From Marinobacter qingdaonensis (GTDB taxonomy: Bacteria; Pseudomonadota; Gammaproteobacteria; Pseudomonadales; Oleiphilaceae), in NCBI RefSeq assembly GCF_034555935.1, contig NZ_JAYDCJ010000003.1, positions 2,232,001 to 2,296,000 of the forward strand: a DNA stretch of 64,000 nucleotides. The letters run 5' to 3'. The position numbers and the translations under genes are program-made. Below are positions 29,020 to 39,491 of this stretch, in pieces (positions within the stretch are counted from its first letter, which is position 1; every line of letters begins with the position of its first letter). The notes beneath the pieces were generated by a model. The model was not told the DNA's origin. It saw only the letters and a program-made list of their open reading frames with translations, and ran no database searches.

Positions 29020-30771
29020 ATGAACCGTTACGACACCTTGATCCTGGGTGGCCGCTATTTCGATGGCACCGGCGCCCCTTCGCGCATCGCCCACGTCGCC
29101 ATCAGCGATGGCAAGATCGCCCGCGTGTTCAATTCCGAGCCGGATCCGTCGCTTGCCGACCGGGTGATTGACGCCAGCGGCTGCTGGGTAACGCCCGGAT
29201 TTCTGGACACCCACACCCATTACGACGCCGAGCTGATCGTCTCGCCGTCACTGTCCGAATCGGTTCGTCACGGGGTCACCACGGTGCTGATCGGCAGCTG
29301 TTCCCTGAGCATGGTTTGTGCCGAGGCTGAGGATGCCTCCGACATCTTCACCCGGGTCGAAACCGTGCCCCGGGACAAGGTGCTGCCGATCCTGCGTGAG
29401 CACAAGGCCTGGCGCACTCCGGCCGGCTGGTTGAATTTTATCCGCCAGCACCCCCTGGGGCCGAACGTGATCAGTTTTCTCGGCCACAGTGACCTGCGGG
29501 TGGCGGTCATGGGATTGCACCGGTCCACCGACCGGTCGGTCAGCCCCACGGCCGAGGAAATGCACCGCATGGAGCAACTGCTGGAGGAGGCGCTGCAGGT
29601 GGGGTTTCTGGGCCTGTCGACCATGTGCCTGAAGTGGGACAAGGTCGATGGCGACCGCGAATGGTCCAAGAGCCTGCCCAGCACCTACGCCCGCTGGCGC
29701 GAGGTCAGCCGCCTGAATCGCCTGTTGCGCCGGTACGGTCGGGTGCACCAGGGCGCGCCCAACGCCGCCAACCCGCTGCAGGTGACCCAGTATCTGCGGG
29801 AGACCCTGGGCTGGTTCCGCAAGCCCCTGAAAACCACCCTGATTGCCATGATCGACCTGAAGGGCAATCCCACGGTCCGGCCCATGGCCAACCTGGTGGG
29901 CTGGATCGCCAACGCCTTGCGCGGCAACTTTCGCTGGCAGCTACTGCCGACCCCCTTCGCGATCTACGCCGACGGCATGGACATCGTGCTGTTCGAGGAG
30001 TTCGGGGCCGGTGAAATGGCCCTGGATGTGCGCGATCAGTTGGAGCGCAACGAACTGCTGCAAGACGAGGGCTACCGCCGCACCTTTCGGAAGTTCTACA
30101 AGGAGAAGCTGTCGCCCCGGGTGTGGCAGCGGGATTTCGGCGATGCCATTGTCCTCGACTGCCCGGACCGGAGCCTGGTCGGACGCAATTTCGCCGAGCT
30201 GGCGTCCGAGCGTGGCGTCCATGTGGTGGATTTCTTCCTGGACATGGTGGTGGCCCACGGTCGGGCGCTGCGCTGGTTTACGGTCATCGGCAACCACCGG
30301 GAAGACCGCCTGCGACGGATGGTAAAAAGCCCCCACGCCCTGATCACTTTTTCCGACGCCGGTGCCCACATCCGCAACATGGCCTTCTACAACCTGCCGC
30401 TGCGGTTCCTCAAACTGGTGCTGGACAGTGAGCGGGCTGGCAAACCGGTGATGTCCCTGGAGCGGGCGGTGCATCGCGTCACCGGCGAGCAGGCCGACTG
30501 GCTGGGGATTGACGCCGGCCATATCCGCGAGGGTGACCGGGCCGATGTCACGGTGCTGGATCCGGCCGGGCTGGCGCAGGACCTCGAACAGGTGCACTGG
30601 GCGGAGATGGAGAATTTTGACCTGCAACGCATGGTCAATCGGGTGCCGGGTTGTGTAAAACACGTGCTGATCAATGGCCGGGCCGCGGTCACTGACGAAC
30701 AACTGACGCCCGAACTCGGAACGGTGACGGGCTTTGGTCAATTCTTGCCAGCGACGAGAGGCGGATCGTGA
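29020..30771 (+). CDS. Amidohydrolase-family protein, D-aminoacylase-like
   Basis: Metal-dependent hydrolase of 583 residues. N-terminal DTLILGGRYFDGTGAPS and IDASGCWVTPGFLDTHTHYD (HxH metal ligands), a later histidine region TVIGNHRE, and SDAGAHIRNMAFYN near the C-terminus place it in the N-acyl-D-amino-acid deacylase/dihydroorotase-like group. The C-terminal IREGDRADVTVLDPAGLA closes the composite beta-sandwich. Substrate is unknown; these proteins are often annotated from distant homology only. It ends 55 bases from the converging malT gene. Confidence 0.8.
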   Translation: MNRYDTLILGGRYFDGTGAPSRIAHVAISDGKIARVFNSEPDPSLADRVIDASGCWVTPGFLDTHTHYDAELIVSPSLSESVRHGVTTVLIGSCSLSMVCAEAEDASDIFTRVETVPRDKVLPILREHKAWRTPAGWLNFIRQHPLGPNVISFLGHSDLRVAVMGLHRSTDRSVSPTAEEMHRMEQLLEEALQVGFLGLSTMCLKWDKVDGDREWSKSLPSTYARWREVSRLNRLLRRYGRVHQGAPNAANPLQVTQYLRETLGWFRKPLKTTLIAMIDLKGNPTVRPMANLVGWIANALRGNFRWQLLPTPFAIYADGMDIVLFEEFGAGEMALDVRDQLERNELLQDEGYRRTFRKFYKEKLSPRVWQRDFGDAIVLDCPDRSLVGRNFAELASERGVHVVDFFLDMVVAHGRALRWFTVIGNHREDRLRRMVKSPHALITFSDAGAHIRNMAFYNLPLRFLKLVLDSERAGKPVMSLERAVHRVTGEQADWLGIDAGHIREGDRADVTVLDPAGLAQDLEQVHWAEMENFDLQRMVNRVPGCVKHVLINGRAAVTDEQLTPELGTVTGFGQFLPATRGGS

Positions 30772-30826: not shown

Positions 30827-33595
30827 TCATTCACCCTGAATCTTGCTCAACAGATCCTTGGCCAGTTCGATGGCTTCGGAGCGGTGGCTGATGTTCTGCT
30901 TCTGGTACAGGCTGCGGATGTGGGTTTTCACCGTGGTTGAGGCAACCTTCAGGTGCTCGGCGATCTGGTCGTTGGAGAGGCCGGCGTGGATCAGACTGAG
31001 GATCTGCCACTCCCGACGGGTCAGGGGCGAGGTGCGGATCAGCTCGGGCACGTCCGGCCGATCGATGATGTCCTGAATGATGGCTTCGTCCAGGGAGATC
31101 CGGATGGCCCGGCTGAAATCCCGCTGTTGCTGGGCCAACTGGATCAGTCGCTCGGCCCGCTGCAGCTCCATGCCTGCCAGGGTGCCCTCGTTGATCAGCG
31201 CCTTGAGCATGACAATGAGCACCTTGCCCAGACGCAGGAAACTGCCGACCGCGCCGGTGGTGCTGGCGAGCTCGAGCGCCTGGGTCAGTTGCGCCAGGGC
31301 CGGCTCCCGCTGTTCCTGCTGCCAGTACAGGTAGGCCAGGCTGATGTGGTTGCGGTTCAGGTCGGTGTTCAGACCCAACTGCCGGGCAACCCGGACCAGG
31401 GACTCCAGCAGGGGCTGGGCGTCGGCCCAACGGCCCAGGCTCATCAGGGCCCGGGCCCGGTTCCGGCCGTTGCACTGGTAAAAGTGGTTGGTGGCGGCGT
31501 CCGGATCGCACTCGGGCGCCACGGTAAGCCAACGCTGGATGGCTTCCTGGTCGCGCACCGCATCCCAGTAGGACAGCATGGTGGCGTGGGCATTGGCGAC
31601 CCAGTCTAGGTGGTAGTCACCGGCGGCCAGCATCTTCTGGATCTTGCCGATGTAGTCGGCACACAGGGACTGCCGGCCCCGGGCCTGGGCCACCTTGGCG
31701 AGGGTCGTGTAGCTCTGCACGTACCAGCGTTCGCCCTGGGCCTCGAGAATTTCAATGCCCTGCAGGGCGCAGCGTTCGGCGCTTTCCAGGTGGTGCCACT
31801 CCCACATGATCTGGCTGCGGATACGGAACAGGAACTCAAGGATCGGCAGGTGGTTGAGCTGGTTCTCCTCGGCGTACTGGAAGGCCCGTTCCTGCACGTT
31901 GTAGGCCTTTTGCAGCAGGCCCATGGCAACACTGATTTCACTCTGCTGGCACAGCGCCCAGAGCACGTTCTGGTGTGCCTGGTGGGCGCGGGCCAGGTGC
32001 TCGGTGTCCTGCATCCGCGCCATCGCTTCCTCCAGCTCACCGCGCACAAACAGCGCCTCGCCAATGACCGACGCCGCCGCCACCCGGGAGGTGGGCAGGT
32101 AGCGCGCCTCCTGCTCGATGGCCTCGCGGGCCAGGGCCAGGGCCCGGTCGCCGTCACCGTAATTCATCGCGACCTGGGCTCGAATGGCACTGAATTCACC
32201 GTGCACCGCCTTCTGGGTGTCCTCGCTCAGGGACGCCTGCAGCCGGGTCTCGGCCGCGGATAGCCAGTTCTCGACTTCGTCAAAACGGTACTGGCCCTGG
32301 GCGACCCAGGCCCGGAGCAGGGTCAGGGTCGGGTCCTCGGCAATCTGGTCCTGGGCCAAGGCGTCCAGGCAGCGTTGCAGCAGGCTGAACTGGCCCTCGG
32401 TGAAGAACTTGCGGCCGTGCAGGCGCAGCACCTGGTTGATCCGGTCCGGATCATCCGCGGCCACGGCGTGCCGGGCCGCTTCCTCGGCGTGGTCCAGCTC
32501 GAGCCAGGCGTCGGCGGCGCGCTGGTGCAGTTCGCGCCGGTTTTCCTCGGTGGTGCAGGTCAGCAGATGGCGCAGGTACACCGAAAACAGCGGCTGGTAG
32601 CGGAACCACAAGGCCGAGGCATCGACCGGGGCGATGAACAGCCCCATGGACAGCAGGCTGCTCAAGAGCGCCTGACCGTCGGTGTCATCCATGACCCGCA
32701 TCACCAGGCCGGCATTGAAGCGGTCCAGGATGCTGGTGCGCAGCAGGAACCGGCGTTGCTGATCGGTCAGGGTCTGGCCCACCAGTTCGTCGAAGTAATC
32801 GAAGATGTGCTGATTGCCCACCTCCAGCTGGTCGACAAACTCATTGAAATCAGTGCTGGTGGCCGCCGACGCGGACAACAGCTGCAGCGCCGAGATCCAG
32901 CCTTCCACCCGACGCACGGCGCGTTCGATGCTTTCCCGCGACACCTCGAAGGGTAACCGCCGCTCCAGGTAGGCCTGGGCTTCGTCGGCCGCGAACGCGA
33001 GGTCCCGGCTGGTGATCTCGGTCATCCGGCCCTGCATCCGAAGCTGGGCGACGCCGATGGGGGGCAGGGTCCGGGTCACCAGCACCAGCCGCAGGCTGGC
33101 CGGCAGGTGCCGGAGCAGGAAGCGCAGGGCGCCGTGGATGTCCGGGTTGTCGATCAGGTGGTAGTCATCCAGCACCAGCATCAGGGGCGAGTCCCAGGAT
33201 TCGAGCTCAGCCAGCAGGCTTGTCAGCAAAGCTTCCAGGGAGTCAAAACCTGCCGTCTGCAGGGTGTTCAGGGTCGCCGCACAGCCACCGGCGGTGGCCC
33301 GGTCCAGGCTGTGGACCAGGTAGCCGCCAAACTGGCTGAGCTGGTTGTCGCTGGCCTCCAGCCGGTACCAGGCTGCCGCCAGATTGAGCGCGTCCAGGCG
33401 TTCGGCCACGGTCGTGGTCTTGCCGTAGCCGGCCGGCGCATGCACCAACAGCAACTTGACGGCGTCCAGGTCCTGGAGCCCGTCGGTGAACCGCTCCCGG
33501 GGCAGCAGGGCGGGCGGAGCCTCGGGGGCGGTGATCTTGGCGGAAATAAAGGTAAGGGGTCCTGGCTTGAGTGTTGTTGTCATCAGGATCTGCAT
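30827..33595 (-). CDS. malT: Maltose regulon activator MalT
   Basis: ATP- and maltotriose-dependent LuxR-type activator of the STAND class; 922 residues (E. coli 901). N-terminal ATPase with Walker A APAGYGKTTT and Walker B LMLVLDDYHLI, a winged-helix/TPR-type central part, and a C-terminal LuxR helix-turn-helix: LTRREWQILSLIHAGLSNDQ, then IAEHLKVASTTVKTHIRSLY and QKQNISHRSEAIELA. This end matches E. coli MalT almost word for word ([20 protein letters not shown]). Start ATG 33595; a second ATG four codons later is equally possible since neither has a clear ribosome site. Targets predicted here: agl-malK (consensus box) and malEFG. Confidence 0.93.
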   Translation of the reverse strand: MQILMTTTLKPGPLTFISAKITAPEAPPALLPRERFTDGLQDLDAVKLLLVHAPAGYGKTTTVAERLDALNLAAAWYRLEASDNQLSQFGGYLVHSLDRATAGGCAATLNTLQTAGFDSLEALLTSLLAELESWDSPLMLVLDDYHLIDNPDIHGALRFLLRHLPASLRLVLVTRTLPPIGVAQLRMQGRMTEITSRDLAFAADEAQAYLERRLPFEVSRESIERAVRRVEGWISALQLLSASAATSTDFNEFVDQLEVGNQHIFDYFDELVGQTLTDQQRRFLLRTSILDRFNAGLVMRVMDDTDGQALLSSLLSMGLFIAPVDASALWFRYQPLFSVYLRHLLTCTTEENRRELHQRAADAWLELDHAEEAARHAVAADDPDRINQVLRLHGRKFFTEGQFSLLQRCLDALAQDQIAEDPTLTLLRAWVAQGQYRFDEVENWLSAAETRLQASLSEDTQKAVHGEFSAIRAQVAMNYGDGDRALALAREAIEQEARYLPTSRVAAASVIGEALFVRGELEEAMARMQDTEHLARAHQAHQNVLWALCQQSEISVAMGLLQKAYNVQERAFQYAEENQLNHLPILEFLFRIRSQIMWEWHHLESAERCALQGIEILEAQGERWYVQSYTTLAKVAQARGRQSLCADYIGKIQKMLAAGDYHLDWVANAHATMLSYWDAVRDQEAIQRWLTVAPECDPDAATNHFYQCNGRNRARALMSLGRWADAQPLLESLVRVARQLGLNTDLNRNHISLAYLYWQQEQREPALAQLTQALELASTTGAVGSFLRLGKVLIVMLKALINEGTLAGMELQRAERLIQLAQQQRDFSRAIRISLDEAIIQDIIDRPDVPELIRTSPLTRREWQILSLIHAGLSNDQIAEHLKVASTTVKTHIRSLYQKQNISHRSEAIELAKDLLSKIQGE

Positions 33596-33827: not shown

Positions 33828-34628
33828 ATGCTGCTGGTGCTCGCCGGATCCATTCTCACCTTCACGATAGCGCAGGAAGCCACGGTGGTGGAGCCTATCG
33901 ACAAGGGCACGATCGTCATCGAGCAGGATGTTGACGCCGGACCGGTGTTGTTGCGTTCCGATGTCCGGGTTGAGCCGCTGGTCGAGCAGAAGTACCGCAA
34001 CATCGTGCGTCAGGCCTACGACTACAGTTGCGGCAGCGCGGCGCTGACCACGGTGTTGAACTTCTACCTTGGCCGCAACCTGTCCGAACGTCAGGTCATG
34101 GAAGGGTTGCTCCATTACGGGGAAAGCGAGCGGATCGTCGAGCGACGCGCGTTCTCGATGCTCGACATGAAACGGCTGGTGACGGCCCTCGGTTACCCCT
34201 CCGGCGGTTTCCGCGCCACCATCGACGACCTCAGGGATCTCGACCACCCCGCCATCGTGCCCATCCAACACGCCGGTTTTAAGCACTTCGTGGTACTGCG
34301 AACCATACGGGACGGCCGGGCCTACCTGGCTGACCCCGCGGTGGGCAACATCTCGTTTCCCGTGGCCGAATTCGAGGAGAAGTGGGACGACAACGTGCTG
34401 TTCATTGTCTTCCCCGGCAGCGACACGCCACTGGACAACTTGGAACTGAAAGAGGAAGACCTGCGCTTCGTGGACGACCAGACCATGACCCTGTTTGCGC
34501 TCGACCGCATTCCGGAATTTCACGAGGCGACCGCCAGACGCATCCAGAACGTGCTGGAGCGGCAGAAGAACAATCCCGACGGCAGTGTGGAAAACACCCG
34601 AAAACAATTGCACTACCGTCGCCACTAA
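33828..34628 (+). CDS. Secreted C39-family peptidase, FapD-like
   Basis: Product of 266 residues with an N-terminal hydrophobic segment (MLLVLAGSILTFTIAQ) that should export or anchor it. The papain-like C39 fold is readable: catalytic Cys in YDYSCGSAALTTVLNFYLG, His in AGFKHFVVLRTI and Asp in AYLADPAVGN. C39 peptidases usually cut leader peptides after double glycine in ABC exporters; stand-alone periplasmic versions include FapD of the Pseudomonas functional-amyloid operon. It heads an operon with a FapF-like barrel 53 bases downstream, which supports the FapD comparison. No fapA/B/C/E-like gene is visible. The ribosome site is weak (AGGA, 12 bases upstream). Confidence 0.8.
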   Translation: MLLVLAGSILTFTIAQEATVVEPIDKGTIVIEQDVDAGPVLLRSDVRVEPLVEQKYRNIVRQAYDYSCGSAALTTVLNFYLGRNLSERQVMEGLLHYGESERIVERRAFSMLDMKRLVTALGYPSGGFRATIDDLRDLDHPAIVPIQHAGFKHFVVLRTIRDGRAYLADPAVGNISFPVAEFEEKWDDNVLFIVFPGSDTPLDNLELKEEDLRFVDDQTMTLFALDRIPEFHEATARRIQNVLERQKNNPDGSVENTRKQLHYRRH

Positions 34629-34681
34629 TTTTCCGGGTCAGTTCCGGACCAGGACACGACAAATAGAATAAGGGAGTCAGG

Positions 34682-35692
34682 ATGAATCGTTGGTTTGTGC
34701 GAGGCGTTATCCTTGTTTCCACGGCAGGACTGCTTCCGGGCATGGCCCTGGCGCAGGAGGGAAGTGTGGACCAGGCGCGGGAAGCCCTCGCCAAGCAGGA
34801 AGGCGACGAGGATTCCTCGCGCCAGCTCGAGCAGGTGTTCCAGGCGGCGGAGAAGAACTATTCGCTGCAGAAGAAAGGCACCCACGCCTTGACCTACTCC
34901 TTCGACTATTCCTACACCGCCGACCAGCGGGTGGATCTGGCGATCACCGATGGCTCGGTGCGCAACCTGGATGTGGTGCCGTCCGCCACCCACAGCTTCA
35001 CCAACGCCTTCTCCTACGACTACGGCCTGCTCAACAACCTGACCGTCGGTACCCGGGTGCCGCTGGTGGTGAAGTACGACTCCCAGGACGAACTCACCGT
35101 CTACGATTTCGGCGACATTTCCTTCACCGGCCGCTGGCAGCCGTTTGCCTATGTCCCCGGCAAGATGTCGACCACCCTGTTCAGCACCTTCACCACCAAA
35201 ACCGGGGTCAGTCCCTACGAAATCGACATCAACGAGCAGCTGTCCACCGGCAGCGGTTACTACTCACTGTCCGGTGGTGTCAGCCTGTCGAAGGTACTGG
35301 ACCCGGTGGTGGTGTTCGGCTCCGTCAGTGCCACCTACAACCTGCCGGTGGATGACCTGGACCAGGTTCGGGGTGCCCGCCGGCTGGTGGAGGTTGACCC
35401 CGGATTCGGCCTGTCCGGCTCGGCCGGCTTTGCCTACTCCCTGTCTTACGACATCTCCCTGAGCATTTCCGCCCAGCTCAGCTACAACGACGAAACCATC
35501 CTGACCTTCAGCGATGGCAGTGAAGCGGTCGCCCAGGACCAGATGACCGGGTTTCTCAGCATGTCGCTCGGTACCCGCGTCAGCGACACCACCATCGTGA
35601 ACACCAGCCTTGGTATCGGCCTGACCGAGGATGCCCCGGACTTTTCCCTGGGTGTGTCCCTGCCCATTAATTTCTCCGGCCTGAAAGAGTGA
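34682..35692 (+). CDS. FapF-like outer-membrane beta-barrel with N-terminal coiled segment
   Basis: Outer-membrane protein of 336 residues. Signal peptide up to ALAQ, then a helical region (VDQAREALAKQEGDEDSSRQ, LEQVFQAAEKNYSLQKKG) and a barrel of alternating strands (LTYSFDYSYTADQ; HSFTNAFSYDYGLLNNLTVG; FTGRWQPFAYVPGKM; ending LGVSLPINFSGLKE). A helical plug followed by a 12-strand barrel is the FapF plan; the phenol-degradation MetA-type porin family is the broader relative. Operon with the C39 peptidase. Cargo exported through it, if any, is not encoded here. Ribosome site AAGGGAG. Confidence 0.7.
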   Translation: MNRWFVRGVILVSTAGLLPGMALAQEGSVDQAREALAKQEGDEDSSRQLEQVFQAAEKNYSLQKKGTHALTYSFDYSYTADQRVDLAITDGSVRNLDVVPSATHSFTNAFSYDYGLLNNLTVGTRVPLVVKYDSQDELTVYDFGDISFTGRWQPFAYVPGKMSTTLFSTFTTKTGVSPYEIDINEQLSTGSGYYSLSGGVSLSKVLDPVVVFGSVSATYNLPVDDLDQVRGARRLVEVDPGFGLSGSAGFAYSLSYDISLSISAQLSYNDETILTFSDGSEAVAQDQMTGFLSMSLGTRVSDTTIVNTSLGIGLTEDAPDFSLGVSLPINFSGLKE

Positions 35693-35730
35693 TTGGCGCC
35701 GTCGACGATTTACGGGAAGGGAAGGACTCC

Positions 35731-37356
35731 ATGGTACACAACAGCCCCAAACGGCGGATTCTCGCGGCGCTGATCGCCTCGACCATCTCGTGTGGTGCCG
35801 AGGCCCAGCTGGCGCAGAACCTGACCATCCATCCGAAGGCGCTGGCGCTGGGCAATGCGGTGACGGCCGATCCCCCGGGGATCCTGTCCATCCATTACAA
35901 CCCGGCCGGCCTCACCAAGCTGGATGACCGCCAGCTTGAGGTAAACCTGATGAGCGTTTACCTCGATATCGACGCCGATTTCCACGCGCCCGACGGCTAC
36001 GAGATCTTCGGCATCGATGGCCTGGCCACCGATCCGGTGACCGGCAAGCAGAAGGATCCGGTCGCCAACACCCACAGTCACACCAACAACGTGGCCCTGT
36101 ACGTGCCCGGCTATGGCATCCTGCGGGCGCCTCCCGGACCGGCGGTGGCGCCCTCGGCCGGCGTCAGCATCAACCCGCCGGGGTCCAAGCTGACCTTTGC
36201 CAACGCCTTCTACCTGCCGCTGGCGGCCGGTTTCTACCGCGACAAGGACGACCCGGGCCGGTACCAGCCTCAGGCCACCGCGCTGCAGCGCACCACCTAC
36301 CTATCACCGACCATCGGCTACGAGATCAACGACGAGTGGTCGGTGGGCGCCGGCATCCATCTGTCCCACATGGGCATTGCCGCCGACCAGTACATGCGCG
36401 CCCCGAACATGCTGCTGGGGGTGGCGGAAATCCTCCAGGACGCCTTCAACTGTGAAAGCGGCGACGAGCCGCTGCAGCCCTGGATTGCCCTGTGTGGCGG
36501 CAACATCGGGCCCTGGGACGACATCGGGGCGCTCAGCATCAACGTTCAGGAGACCCTGTCGCCAACCTACGCGGTTGGCGTGATGTGGGAGCCCACGGAC
36601 TGGTTCAGCTGGGGGGCGAGTTACACCTCCGAAGCGGACATGAACCTCAAGGGGACCTTCGAGATCGAATACACCGACGACTGGTCCGGGTTCTGGCAAC
36701 GACTGAACGGCTCGGTTCTGGGCGCCATCACCTCGGCCATTCTCAGCCTGCCGTCCGGGGCGCCCCGGGAGGCCGGGAATGTCAGCATGGACCTGACCTA
36801 TCCCCAGCACTTCCAGACCGGTATCAGCGTGGATGTGCACCCGAGACTGACCCTGAACGCCGATGTCGGCTGGACCGACTACGCCCAATGGGACGCCTTC
36901 GTCTTCCGGTTCGACCGCAACCTGGAATTCCTCAACGCGGCCAAGATCCTGTCGCCGGAAAACGCCACCTCCAGCACCCTGCGCCTGCCACTGGGCTTCA
37001 AGAGTCAGTGGAACTGGGCCTTCGGCGCCGAGTTCCACGCCTCGTCGCGGCTTGATCTCAGGGCCGGGGTGGAAATCCGGGATTCGGTCATTCCCGATGA
37101 CCAGCGTTCGATCATGGCACCGTTCGGCGGCGCCAACCTGTACAGCGTGGGCATGGGCTACCGCTGGGACAAGGACACACAGATCGACATGAACCTGAGT
37201 TATTTGCAGTCAATCGAAAGCATTCCGGCGGACACCAGCTGTAACGTAAACTGTGACAACATCACCAACATCATCTACAACCCCTACGCCGGGCTGGACA
37301 TCAAGACCTCCCTGCGGGTGGTCATGGCCGGCCTGAGCTTCCGGACCAAATTCTGA
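35731..37356 (+). CDS. FadL/OmpP1-family outer-membrane transport protein
   Basis: Outer-membrane barrel of 541 residues. Signal peptide ILAALIASTISCGAEA; mature part begins LAQNLTIHPKALALGNAVTA, DPPGILSIHYNPAGLTKL, the typical FadL N-terminal hatch (AxAxGNAxxA...NPAG). Later features: YLSPTIGYEINDEWSVGAGI, YPQHFQTGISVDVHPRLTL, and a C-terminal LRVVMAGLSFRTKF ending in aromatic residue as required for barrel assembly. FadL proteins let hydrophobic molecules cross the outer membrane; ligand unknown. The start at 35731 has GGGAAGGGAAGG upstream; an earlier in-frame TTG would overlap the preceding gene. Third gene of the envelope operon. Confidence 0.85.
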   Translation: MVHNSPKRRILAALIASTISCGAEAQLAQNLTIHPKALALGNAVTADPPGILSIHYNPAGLTKLDDRQLEVNLMSVYLDIDADFHAPDGYEIFGIDGLATDPVTGKQKDPVANTHSHTNNVALYVPGYGILRAPPGPAVAPSAGVSINPPGSKLTFANAFYLPLAAGFYRDKDDPGRYQPQATALQRTTYLSPTIGYEINDEWSVGAGIHLSHMGIAADQYMRAPNMLLGVAEILQDAFNCESGDEPLQPWIALCGGNIGPWDDIGALSINVQETLSPTYAVGVMWEPTDWFSWGASYTSEADMNLKGTFEIEYTDDWSGFWQRLNGSVLGAITSAILSLPSGAPREAGNVSMDLTYPQHFQTGISVDVHPRLTLNADVGWTDYAQWDAFVFRFDRNLEFLNAAKILSPENATSSTLRLPLGFKSQWNWAFGAEFHASSRLDLRAGVEIRDSVIPDDQRSIMAPFGGANLYSVGMGYRWDKDTQIDMNLSYLQSIESIPADTSCNVNCDNITNIIYNPYAGLDIKTSLRVVMAGLSFRTKF

Positions 37357-37388
37357 ACCTGGGGGCGTTGAAGGGGCAGGTCGACCGC

Positions 37389-38450
37389 ATGACCATACGT
37401 GCACGGATGACATCGTCGGCATGGCTACTGGTTACCGCCGTCCTGGCCGGGTGCCAGGTGGGCGGATCCACGGTGTCGGATCGCGAGGGGTATTTTACCT
37501 GGGTCGACGAACAGGGCCGGGTGCGCCATTCCCCCATCGCCAAGTCGGAGCAGAAGCGGGCGTCCGAGCCGGAGCCGCCCGTGGCCGAGTCGGCCCGGGC
37601 CCGGTCGCCGGACACCGCCCGGACGCCCTCCCGGACTGGCCCGGAGGGCGACGCCGACGCCTCCGAATACACCCTCGAGAATTACCCCGACGCCAGCCAG
37701 TTGGCCAAAGACGGGTACATCCGGCCGGGGCAGCGCCAGCCGTATTTCACCTGGCGGGATTCGGAGGGCAACCTCAGGGTCAGCTACTTCCAGCCCGATA
37801 CCCGCTCGGACGCCGACAAGGGCCGGGCGCCGGCGCCCGTCGAATTGACGCCGGCCAGTGTCTATCACGCCAAGGCCGGCAGCGCCCCGGTCCGCACCGC
37901 ACCTGAAGGGGAGCCCGATGCCTTTGCGGTACTGGGCATCGATTCGGGCGGCGATTTCCTGGAGCGCTTCAGCGCCACGTGTTGCGCCGCTCTGGATACC
38001 GACGACCACGAAGACTGGCACGAGGCCAGCGAGTTCGGCATCGACCTCGACGAGGCCTCGCCCTGGCACGATTTCCTGAGCGGGCGCAGCCCCTACCACG
38101 CCATCGCCCTGTCCGGGCTGGCAGACCGTCCCGACTTCATCCTGCGTTTGCGCTCCTACGCCGACGATGGCGTGTTCGTACCCTCCCTGGTGTTCCTCGA
38201 CCGGAACCTCAAGCCGGTGCGGCTGGTGACCGACCTGGTCAGCCCGTTCACCCCGGAAACCTGGAGCCGGCGGGGCTTTCTGGAAGCCTGGGTGCCGGTG
38301 TTCCCGGGTCAGGGCGAGCGCTGGCTGGTGGTCTTCACCCGGGATGAAGACCTGGTCGGGCAAACCGTGCTGGAAACCCGCCGGGGCCCGAAGGCCATCC
38401 CCCACGTCACCCGGGGCGAGCTCGGCCTGCGCATGGCCGGGTCGGACTGA
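37389..38450 (+). CDS. Lipoprotein with DUF4124-like repeats and MalM-like C-terminal domain
   Basis: Product of 353 residues with a lipoprotein signal (SSAWLLVTAVLAGC, lipobox LAGC). Two short similar units follow, GYFTWVDEQGRVRHSPI and PYFTWRDSEGNLRVSYFQ, which look like DUF4124-type YxWxDxxG elements, joined by a Pro/Glu/Arg-rich linker. The C-terminal third, FILRLRSYADDGVFVPSLVF, LDRNLKPVRLV and ERWLVVFTRDEDLVGQT, resembles MalM (PF07148), the periplasmic protein of the enterobacterial maltose operon whose role is unclear. ATG 37389 is chosen for the best signal peptide; the ribosome site is poor. Last gene of the C39/FapF/FadL operon. Confidence 0.65.
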   Translation: MTIRARMTSSAWLLVTAVLAGCQVGGSTVSDREGYFTWVDEQGRVRHSPIAKSEQKRASEPEPPVAESARARSPDTARTPSRTGPEGDADASEYTLENYPDASQLAKDGYIRPGQRQPYFTWRDSEGNLRVSYFQPDTRSDADKGRAPAPVELTPASVYHAKAGSAPVRTAPEGEPDAFAVLGIDSGGDFLERFSATCCAALDTDDHEDWHEASEFGIDLDEASPWHDFLSGRSPYHAIALSGLADRPDFILRLRSYADDGVFVPSLVFLDRNLKPVRLVTDLVSPFTPETWSRRGFLEAWVPVFPGQGERWLVVFTRDEDLVGQTVLETRRGPKAIPHVTRGELGLRMAGSD

Positions 38451-38459
38451 AGCCTGGCG

Positions 38460-39491
38460 TCAGTCCTCAGGCTGACTCAGATCCAACCATTGCTGCGACA
38501 GCCAGTAGAAGCGCCCGTCCCCGGCCGGGTGGGTGCAGTTGTAACGGAACCGCCGGCTATTGAAGGCCTCGGGAGCCTGGACCTCGATCCGGTCACCGGC
38601 GGTCCGGAAATCGATTCGGCCCTGACCCGACGCGAAACAGGTCAGGTGGCCTTCGGACAGAGCGGCGGGCAGCTCGAACGACAGCACCGGCGGGTTGTCG
38701 GTCATCACCCCGTCGGGCAACTGGCTGGCATCCACCGGCAAGGCCTGGCTTTGCAGTTTGTCGGGCAGGCTGTTCAGTTGGCCGTAGGCGTTGGCCATGG
38801 GGAATCGCGGCAGTCGGGTGGCCGCCGAGGTGGCCCCGATCGGGCCCGATTGCTGGCCATAGCCGAACCAGCCCCGGTCCGCCAGTTCGCCTTCCAGCGC
38901 GCGATCGAATTCACCGTAGGGGTAGGCAAACAGCGGGGTGGTGGCGCCCAGTTGCTGCTCCAGCGTCGCCTGGGCCGAATCCAGGCTGTGTTCGATGCGC
39001 TGCTGCCACTGCGCCTCCCCTTCGCCCGGCTTGCGCGCCAGGTGGCCATGATCGGCACTGTGGTTGGCGATGGTCACCTTGTCGTCGGCCTGCAGTTCCC
39101 GGATTTGCTCCCAGGTCATGTAGCCGTGGCCACCGACGGCGTCGGTGTTGACGAAGATGGTGTACGGATAATCGCGAGCGGCCAGGATGGGGGCAGCGGT
39201 GTGGTAGACCGAATCGTAGGCGTCGTCGAAGGTCAAGGCCACTTGGTTGGCTGCATCATCGTCACCCTTCAGCGCGGCTTCGGTGCCGGACGCCAGGGGC
39301 ACCACCGCCAGCCCCAGGTCGGCAATCATCGCCATCTGCTCCTCGAACAGGGAAACCGAGGTGCTGGTGGCGGCCGGGGTCGAGTCGCTGATGTGGTGGT
39401 ACTGAAGCACGACCAGGTCGGCGTGGGATGGCAGCGCGGCGCACCCTAGAGCCAGACCTGTGAGCGGTTTCAGAAGTCTCTGCAGAACCAT
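38460..39491 (-). CDS. Secreted polysaccharide deacetylase (CE4 fold)
   Basis: Periplasmic or exported enzyme of 343 residues. Signal peptide LLKPLTGLALGCAALPSHA, then YHHISDSTPAATSTSVSLFE and NQVALTFDDAYDSVYHTAAP with the TFDD catalytic motif, and HSADHGHLA supplying the metal-binding His pair. FAYPYGEFDRALEG is motif 3. This is the N-terminal domain plan of PgaB-type poly-N-acetylglucosamine deacetylases, without the C-terminal hydrolase domain and without pgaA/C/D nearby. Converges with the envelope operon; the gap to it is only 9 bases. Confidence 0.85.
   Translation of the reverse strand: MVLQRLLKPLTGLALGCAALPSHADLVVLQYHHISDSTPAATSTSVSLFEEQMAMIADLGLAVVPLASGTEAALKGDDDAANQVALTFDDAYDSVYHTAAPILAARDYPYTIFVNTDAVGGHGYMTWEQIRELQADDKVTIANHSADHGHLARKPGEGEAQWQQRIEHSLDSAQATLEQQLGATTPLFAYPYGEFDRALEGELADRGWFGYGQQSGPIGATSAATRLPRFPMANAYGQLNSLPDKLQSQALPVDASQLPDGVMTDNPPVLSFELPAALSEGHLTCFASGQGRIDFRTAGDRIEVQAPEAFNSRRFRYNCTHPAGDGRFYWLSQQWLDLSQPED

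Follow-up and report, generated by a model that had tools for sequence, protein, structure and literature searches.

Which proteins would a processing and export operon serve when no cargo gene lies beside it? This question was raised by four neighbouring plus-strand genes of Marinobacter qingdaonensis, located in a window of 64,000 nucleotides (the whole stretch of DNA analysed, G000:C3:2232001-2296000 of the 3.99 Mb assembly, where G000 is the organism's own genome). The first-pass annotation had read their products as a C39-type peptidase, a FapF-like barrel, a FadL-family barrel and a lipoprotein whose end resembles MalM. It had equated the first two with the processing and export pair of the Fap functional-amyloid system, and had not recognised the combination of all four as a described system. 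Our analysis points instead to a counterpart of the Fil putative pilus system of Acinetobacter, a secretion machine with a probably divided operon, whose likely clients, marked by a common N-terminal tag, are encoded at unlinked places in the genome. We give this explanation as a whole a probability of about 0.7.

Identity of the four genes

The four open reading frames (ORFs; 33828-34628, 34682-35692, 35689-37356 and 37368-38450) were confirmed, as were the protein classes originally assigned to them. Gene 1 matched Pfam Peptidase_C39 (1.7e-18), LahT150 (3e-7) and PCAT1 (1e-4). In alignments read by eye, its Gln, Cys, His and Asp fell on the active-site residues of LahT150, in keeping with the intact triad that had been proposed, and Ala and Leu stood at the places of the PCAT1 groove residues A55 and I59. 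A profile of gene 2 and its relatives (33 relatives) matched the FapF crystal chains 5o65, 5o67 and 5o68 over profile positions 110-346 (~2e-25), which concerns homology of the barrel only. Gene 3 matched Pfam Toluene_X (5.5e-70), as befits a FadL-family barrel, and gene 4 matched Pfam MalM at its end (5.5e-11) and DUF4124 weakly. By eye, we preferred ATG 35731 as the start of gene 3, whose ORF is open from GTG 35689, and ATG 37389 as the start of gene 4, whose ORF is open from TTG 37368; the latter choice yields a lipobox-like LAGC.

The best NCBIfam match of gene 1 was FilB (2.5e-82, 276 bits against a cut-off of 475), followed at a distance by FapD (1.4e-34, 119 bits against a cut-off of 330). 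Gene 2 was likewise closer to FilC (9.7e-100, 335 bits against a cut-off of 630) than to FapF (4.1e-21, 75 bits against a cut-off of 700), and gene 3 was closest to FilD (5.3e-165, 550 bits against a cut-off of 970). Gene 4 gave no match when compared with the FilE models directly. A profile of six copies of gene 4 from the genus was then compared with five Moraxellaceae FilE proteins, themselves matching Pfam FilE_C (PF22881), and gave a probability of 93 and E 3e-7 at 14% identity. By homology the operon reads filB-filC-filD-filE, and the locus is very likely a Fil-type machine. The earlier pairing of a C39 peptidase with a FapF-family barrel for processing and export is likely to be right, but a Fap operon without cargo is not the best description of the set; the Fil families match better than FapD and FapF. 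Where a relative at 87-88% identity to the barrel was named, it came from Marinobacter, and some sources name Marinobacter homologues of gene 2 “flagellar protein FilC”.

With Fil of Acinetobacter (NCBIfam NF050077-NF050081) the locus shares the peptidase, the FapF-like barrel, the FadL-like barrel and the MalM-like/FilE lipoprotein, in the same order, as well as a FilA (DUF6160) protein encoded in the same genome; it differs in that filA lies outside the operon and in its scores below the curated cut-offs. It is like Fap of Pseudomonas (FapA-F) in having a periplasmic C39 peptidase and a FapF-family barrel. Unlike that of Fap, its operon lacks FapB/C repeat genes and contains an additional FadL barrel and a FilE lipoprotein, and the leader of its putative clients ends mostly in G-Q and not in RG-G/R/K. 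Higher levels of Fil proteins have been reported for the pellicle and biofilm of Acinetobacter (PMC3203104, PMC8792954).

Candidate cargo genes and a probable split of the operon

None of the four flanking genes scanned (the regulator at 30827-33595 and the genes at 29020, 38460 and 39536) encoded a Fap-like protein, and no FapB/FapC amyloid repeat gene was present among these and the four operon genes, as had been noticed before. FilA was not found inside the operon either, the nearest DUF6160 gene being ~225 kb away. Three genes of the genome scored above the cut-off for DUF6160 (FilA1, FilA2 and a third DUF6160 protein, Table 1), and two matched the NCBIfam FilA model below its cut-off. The earlier suggestion that the substrate might be encoded elsewhere is likely to be right.

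The FilD scan of the genome collection covered the best 80 of 408 relatives (one of them, L065, is a contig of G007). FilC was present in all 80 FilD loci and FilB in 78. In 74 loci an ORF with the N-terminal tag described below preceded filB, in the same orientation, and two loci had a further tagged ORF on the other strand. The gene pabB was found in 71 of the loci, thrH in nine and cysH in seven; in 40 listed of the 71 pabB-bearing loci, pabB was upstream of filA on the opposite strand. In M. qingdaonensis the order was cysH-thrH-pabB-(194-residue ORF)-filA1, gene names being assigned by blastp against the related loci and by reading of the sequences. Since filA1 lies by pabB here and pabB accompanies filA-filBCD loci elsewhere, the operon has probably been split, and the ancestral arrangement was probably pabB-filA-filBCDE, from which filBCDE has parted. 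In G439, assembled as one contig, the nearest tagged gene among the matches listed was 222 kb from filC.

A two-part N-terminal tag

The DUF6160 proteins shared an N-terminus composed of a Sec signal and, behind it, a leader. The counts rest on 32 N-termini, from 34 read among 40 DUF6160 places. Numbered back from a G-Q pair, the leader had Leu or Met at -15 (31/32), Met, Leu, Ile or Val at -12 (32/32), Asp at -10 (24/32), Leu or Met at -7 (32/32), Val or Ile at -4 (27/32), Gly at -2 (31/32), Gln at -1 (30/32, with Glu in the other 2/32) and Ala or Gly at +1 (26/32). Ala was found at -17 in 25 and at -19 in 22 of the 32 N-termini, so that an AxA site would end ~16 residues ahead of the cut expected at G-Q. 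The 80 FilD loci held 107 tagged ORFs, of which 94 fitted our search expression; these represented 58 distinct leaders, all with G-Q. An alignment made independently of the expression gave the same leader columns, and the leader was free of gaps apart from position -16.

The consensus of C39 substrates is given as L(-12)xxxE(-8)L(-7)xxxxG(-2)G(-1), with Val, Leu or Ile common at -4 (PMC6363468, PMC6959990), and the leader resembled it at -12, -7, -4 and -2. The peptidase-containing ABC transporters PCAT1 and LahT likewise combine a C39 peptidase with a leader that is hydrophobic at -12, -7 and -4 and has Gly at -2. The present system differs from them in having no ABC transporter, in the Gln at -1, and in that the leader and the peptidase would come into play in the periplasm, downstream of Sec. 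Within the searched titles and abstract starts, a scope outside which most subscription journals lie, this leader was undescribed on Fil or Fap clients, and DUF6160 was named in a single paper of the literature searched, as part of a list of domains without function. A motif scan of the genome with a DNA pattern gave 214 matches, compared with 131 when the pattern was reversed, and was not used. Many FilA proteins end in T-x-[hydrophobic]-x-[hydrophobic]-x-G-H, possibly a second signal.

Co-occurrence of the tag and FilC

FilC matches at 1e-10 or better were found in 34 of 369 class genomes; six of them were strong (at least 198 bits) and the other 28 reached at most 88 bits. DUF6160 (E<=0.001) was found in 6 of the 369 genomes, exactly the six with strong FilC (Fisher 3e-13, uncorrected for kinship, with two of the six from the same family), and gave no match in the 28 class genomes with weak FilC-level matches only. 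Using 29 of the 32 N-termini, we built a profile of the tag, signal and leader together. Only in the same six genomes did matches extend to profile position 38 or beyond; such matches numbered at least 4 (G000), 7 (G007), 5 (G010), 17 (G138), 4 (G210) and 18 (G251), with 19 candidates scored in five of the six genomes. Matches at E<=0.01 in 20 other class genomes covered the signal part only and ended at position 26 or earlier, with two exceptions that reached further (G229, ending at 37, and G241, ending at 34).

The genus survey comprised 100 genomes, counted as FilC-positive when FilC matched at 1e-40 or better, and its gene searches covered genes 2 and 4 of the operon. FilC was found in 78 genomes and the tag (E<=0.001) in 80. 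All 78 FilC-positive genomes carried the tag (2 to 10 matches per genome), the best match always spanning the leader (Fisher 4e-19 for the association, kinship again uncorrected). Gene 4 was also matched in all 78 (fragmented, with a stop, in G423 and G460; at a contig edge in G427). Genes 2 and 4 were ~3 kb apart in every one of these 78 genomes when coordinates were compared by eye, an arrangement that can therefore not be due to chance. Genes 2 and 4 are thus kept together across the FilC-positive genomes and the barrel belongs to the FapF family, so that the grounds on which the first-pass annotation would have been refuted (a barrel outside that family, and genes not conserved together) do not apply. 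In FilC-negative genomes only fragments of gene 4 were found (G395, G409 and G441), which looks like joint decay.

A membrane-tethered candidate client

A match of the tag profile at C3:2822321 (E 2.4e-4, leader part only) fell in a protein with an MshE-type domain, which binds cyclic diguanosine monophosphate (c-di-GMP; domain match 3.6e-19, above cut-off). Read by eye, the domain is followed by a hydrophobic segment, then by MDEDEMASVAGQ as the leader and finally by a FilA-like end. This leader was kept in six of six aligned homologues (12 loci fetched, one strand scanned). The protein was present near full length in 72 of the 78 FilC-positive and in none of the 22 FilC-negative genus genomes (Fisher 5e-17), two of the latter having short matches only. 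With a c-di-GMP-binding domain placed before the leader, release or export of this candidate client could be set by c-di-GMP.

Proposed mechanism and its alternatives

The tagged DUF6160 proteins are likely to be clients of the Fil-type machine. In the mechanism we propose, the tagged precursors (FilA1, FilA2, the third DUF6160 protein and perhaps the membrane-tethered one as a fourth) would be exported by Sec, after which signal peptidase would cut at AxA and expose the leader of ~16 residues. The periplasmic peptidase FilB would dock this leader via the hydrophobic residues at -12, -7 and -4 and would, plausibly, cut it at or near G-Q. Passage of the mature proteins across the outer membrane would, equally plausibly, be through the FapF-type barrel FilC, with help from the FadL barrel FilD and the lipoprotein FilE. 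Once outside, they would form surface fibres or other surface proteins.

Several observations weigh against this explanation. The FilB, FilC and FilD matches all lie under the curated NCBIfam cut-offs; the closest Marinobacter relatives are likewise under that of FilC. FilF gave no match in the genome at E<=1, control genomes being silent as well, and the model does match in G007. The leader counts are partly built in, because the search expression admitted only hydrophobic residues at -12 and -7 and also limited the choice at -4, -2 and -1; 13 of the 107 tagged ORFs did not fit it, eight of these having A-Q. Glu stood at -8 in just 13 of 32 leaders, and Gln at -1 is not among the usual C39 residues (Gly, Ala, Ser). 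A matrix of 15 FapE leaders scored at least 6 bits in 10 of 33 DUF6160 proteins against 12% of shuffles, and in 38 of 185 members of a background set in which FapE genes were included. As this matrix recognises DUF6160 leaders weakly, the FilA and FapE leaders appear to be alike in plan and not close in sequence. The tag was also present in 2 of the 22 FilC-negative genus genomes (one gene each in G409 and G441), and the co-occurrence statistics carry no correction for kinship.

The Gln at -1, unusual for C39, would be easier to understand if the tag were a docking or retention motif and no cleavage site, so that FilB handed its clients to FilC uncut or cut them elsewhere. Some C39-like domains of type I systems just bind their substrate, according to two papers (PMC5557850, PMC6363468). 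However, FilB has kept its catalytic residues, and the first of these papers reports that FapC secretion needs the active-site Cys of the related FapD (PMC5557850). We regard docking without cleavage at G-Q as unlikely.

Slightly less likely again is an ordinary Fil pilus, with FilA1 (perhaps also FilA2) as the only cargo and with the other tagged proteins, which would not use the machine, having inherited their N-termini or retained them for a different reason. One paper gives FilA as the pilus subunit of the Fil system in Tol 5 (PMC11784438), and the Acinetobacter operons seen had one to four tagged FilA genes beside filB. A single pilus is hard to reconcile with the tagged ORFs of G138 (at least 17) and G251 (at least 18), which have very different mature parts and are spread over many contigs, or with the loss of nearly all tagged genes from FilC-negative genus genomes.

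FilC, FilD and FilE could also take up hydrophobic compounds, with the C39 peptidase and the DUF6160 proteins serving surface substrate binding. FilD does belong to the FadL-family barrels, FapF is described as resembling COG4313 uptake channels (PMC6173800), and Marinobacter is reported to use the outer/inner membrane pair AupA-AupB for alkanes (PMC5989066). The four genes, however, include no inner-membrane partner, and in the surveyed genomes the gene set stays with tagged secreted proteins; uptake is accordingly improbable. The weakest alternative, a reduced Fap system exporting the amyloid proteins of a Fap-type locus elsewhere in the genome, has in its favour that FilB and FilC are distant relatives of FapD and FapF and that a repeat protein is present at such a locus, but we dropped it as very improbable because DUF6160 accompanies strong FilC and not weak FapF-like matches (as in the 28 class genomes above) and because the Fap-type locus, which is separate from the Fil operon, brings FapD- and FapF-like genes of its own.

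Fap-type loci and FapE leaders

The Fap-type locus of M. qingdaonensis (L015, Table 1) encoded a FapD-like peptidase (1e-46) and, on the other strand, a FapF-like barrel (9e-44). It also had a FapE-like protein (weak FapE match, 0.006) with the leader LSDEELASLRGG after its signal, a small secreted protein of 116 residues with LSADQLDSASGR, and the repeat protein. All of these proteins were below curated cut-offs or without a family. A sample of 31 loci around weak FilC matches plus L015 contained a C39 gene, recognised by motif, in 25 loci. By script, the gene directly after it (FapE-like) carried a canonical post-Sec double-glycine leader in 23 of the 25, and the remaining two, L026 and L039, showed the leader in a separate leader listing. 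A looser expression, set after the first leader results were seen, matched 24 of 70 signal-bearing genes near C39 against 0 of 43 that were more than 5 kb away within those loci. Five named records were covered: the leader is in the gene after C39 in Photobacterium sp. DA100, Aeromonas caviae and Croceicoccus marinus and in the gene before it in Cupriavidus metallidurans, the fifth record being the plasmid described below. We make no claim for FapB/C-type proteins as leader carriers, some matches having overlapped amyloid-repeat-like sequence or lain far from the N-terminus.

A 2017 paper described the target of FapD as unclear (PMC5557850), and one of 2018 as still to be established (PMC6173800). 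The 2017 paper describes Fap proteins as being without canonical C39 sequences, and allows that FapE could be processed, no peptides having been seen in its first ~70 residues (PMC5557850). Our survey suggests that canonical leaders exist in FapE-type proteins of other genera, and would agree with FapE as the FapD target.

On the 6.3 kb mobilizable plasmid pTR11_4 of Acinetobacter sp. TR11 (L198:404-2033), a C39 peptidase adjoins a protein of 188 residues, which begins like a signal and has LSNQEMKDTQGA as its leader; a barrel gene is absent from the annotation of this plasmid.

Neighbouring genes and other features

A MalT-like regulator is encoded divergently from the operon (Table 1). At E<=1e-200 it was found in 25 of the 100 genus genomes, every one FilC-positive, and in 20 of these 25, compared by eye, it was no more than 5 kb from filC. 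We considered it as a core part of the system and rejected this; being present in just 25 of 100 genomes, it appears to be an optional neighbour. Directly 3′ of filE is a convergent polysaccharide deacetylase gene (38460-39491, minus strand) with weak similarity to PgaB.

Two class genomes showed, by eye, other surroundings of the fil genes. In G010 (L014:6865-8860) FilC had a long OmpA-like N-terminal extension, and a small OmpA-like gene lay between filB and filC. In G138 (L012:3-7645) filB-filC lay beside genes like those of pilus/MSHA biogenesis and PilT-type ATPases, with filD not adjoining.

Table 1. Features of the Fil-type locus, its candidate clients and the Fap-type locus. Plain numbers are window positions; prefixed numbers refer to contigs or fetched loci.
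Feature	Position	Strand	Distance from operon	Evidence
FilB-like periplasmic C39 peptidase, N-terminal signal or anchor	33828..34628	+		NCBIfam FilB, Pfam Peptidase_C39
FilC-like FapF-family outer-membrane barrel	34682..35692	+		NCBIfam FilC, FapF structure matches
FilD-like OmpP1/FadL-family barrel	35731..37356	+		NCBIfam FilD, Pfam Toluene_X
FilE counterpart: lipoprotein, DUF4124-like start, MalM-like end	37389..38450	+		Pfam MalM, profile comparison
Divergent MalT/LuxR-type regulator, putative optional neighbour	30827..33595	-		NCBIfam MalT above cut-off
FilA1	C3:2494973		~225 kb	DUF6160 above cut-off
FilA2	C3:2926361		~656 kb	DUF6160 above cut-off
Third DUF6160 protein	C3:1991425		~274 kb	DUF6160 above cut-off
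MshE-type domain protein with tag	L008:1138-1875 = G000:C3:2821961-2822698	-		Tag profile, domain match
Separate Fap-type locus	L015:5646-9068 = G000:C3:1127645-1131067

Wider meaning

Taken jointly, the Fil and Fap results permit a broader and tentative reading, to which we give slightly less than an even chance. Fil and Fap may be two branches of a single, general route of export, with a second, C39-type leader behind the Sec signal that serves as a portable tag on many unlinked proteins per genome. FapE-type proteins would then be the substrates of FapD, and c-di-GMP could set the release or export of the MshE-type client of Marinobacter. A common post-Sec leader would make the target of FilB testable, and would give both the FapD target and the function of DUF6160 a cheap and concrete test. 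For Marinobacter, a seemingly empty operon would become a machine with several clients, whose cargo is missed when the neighbourhood alone is read.

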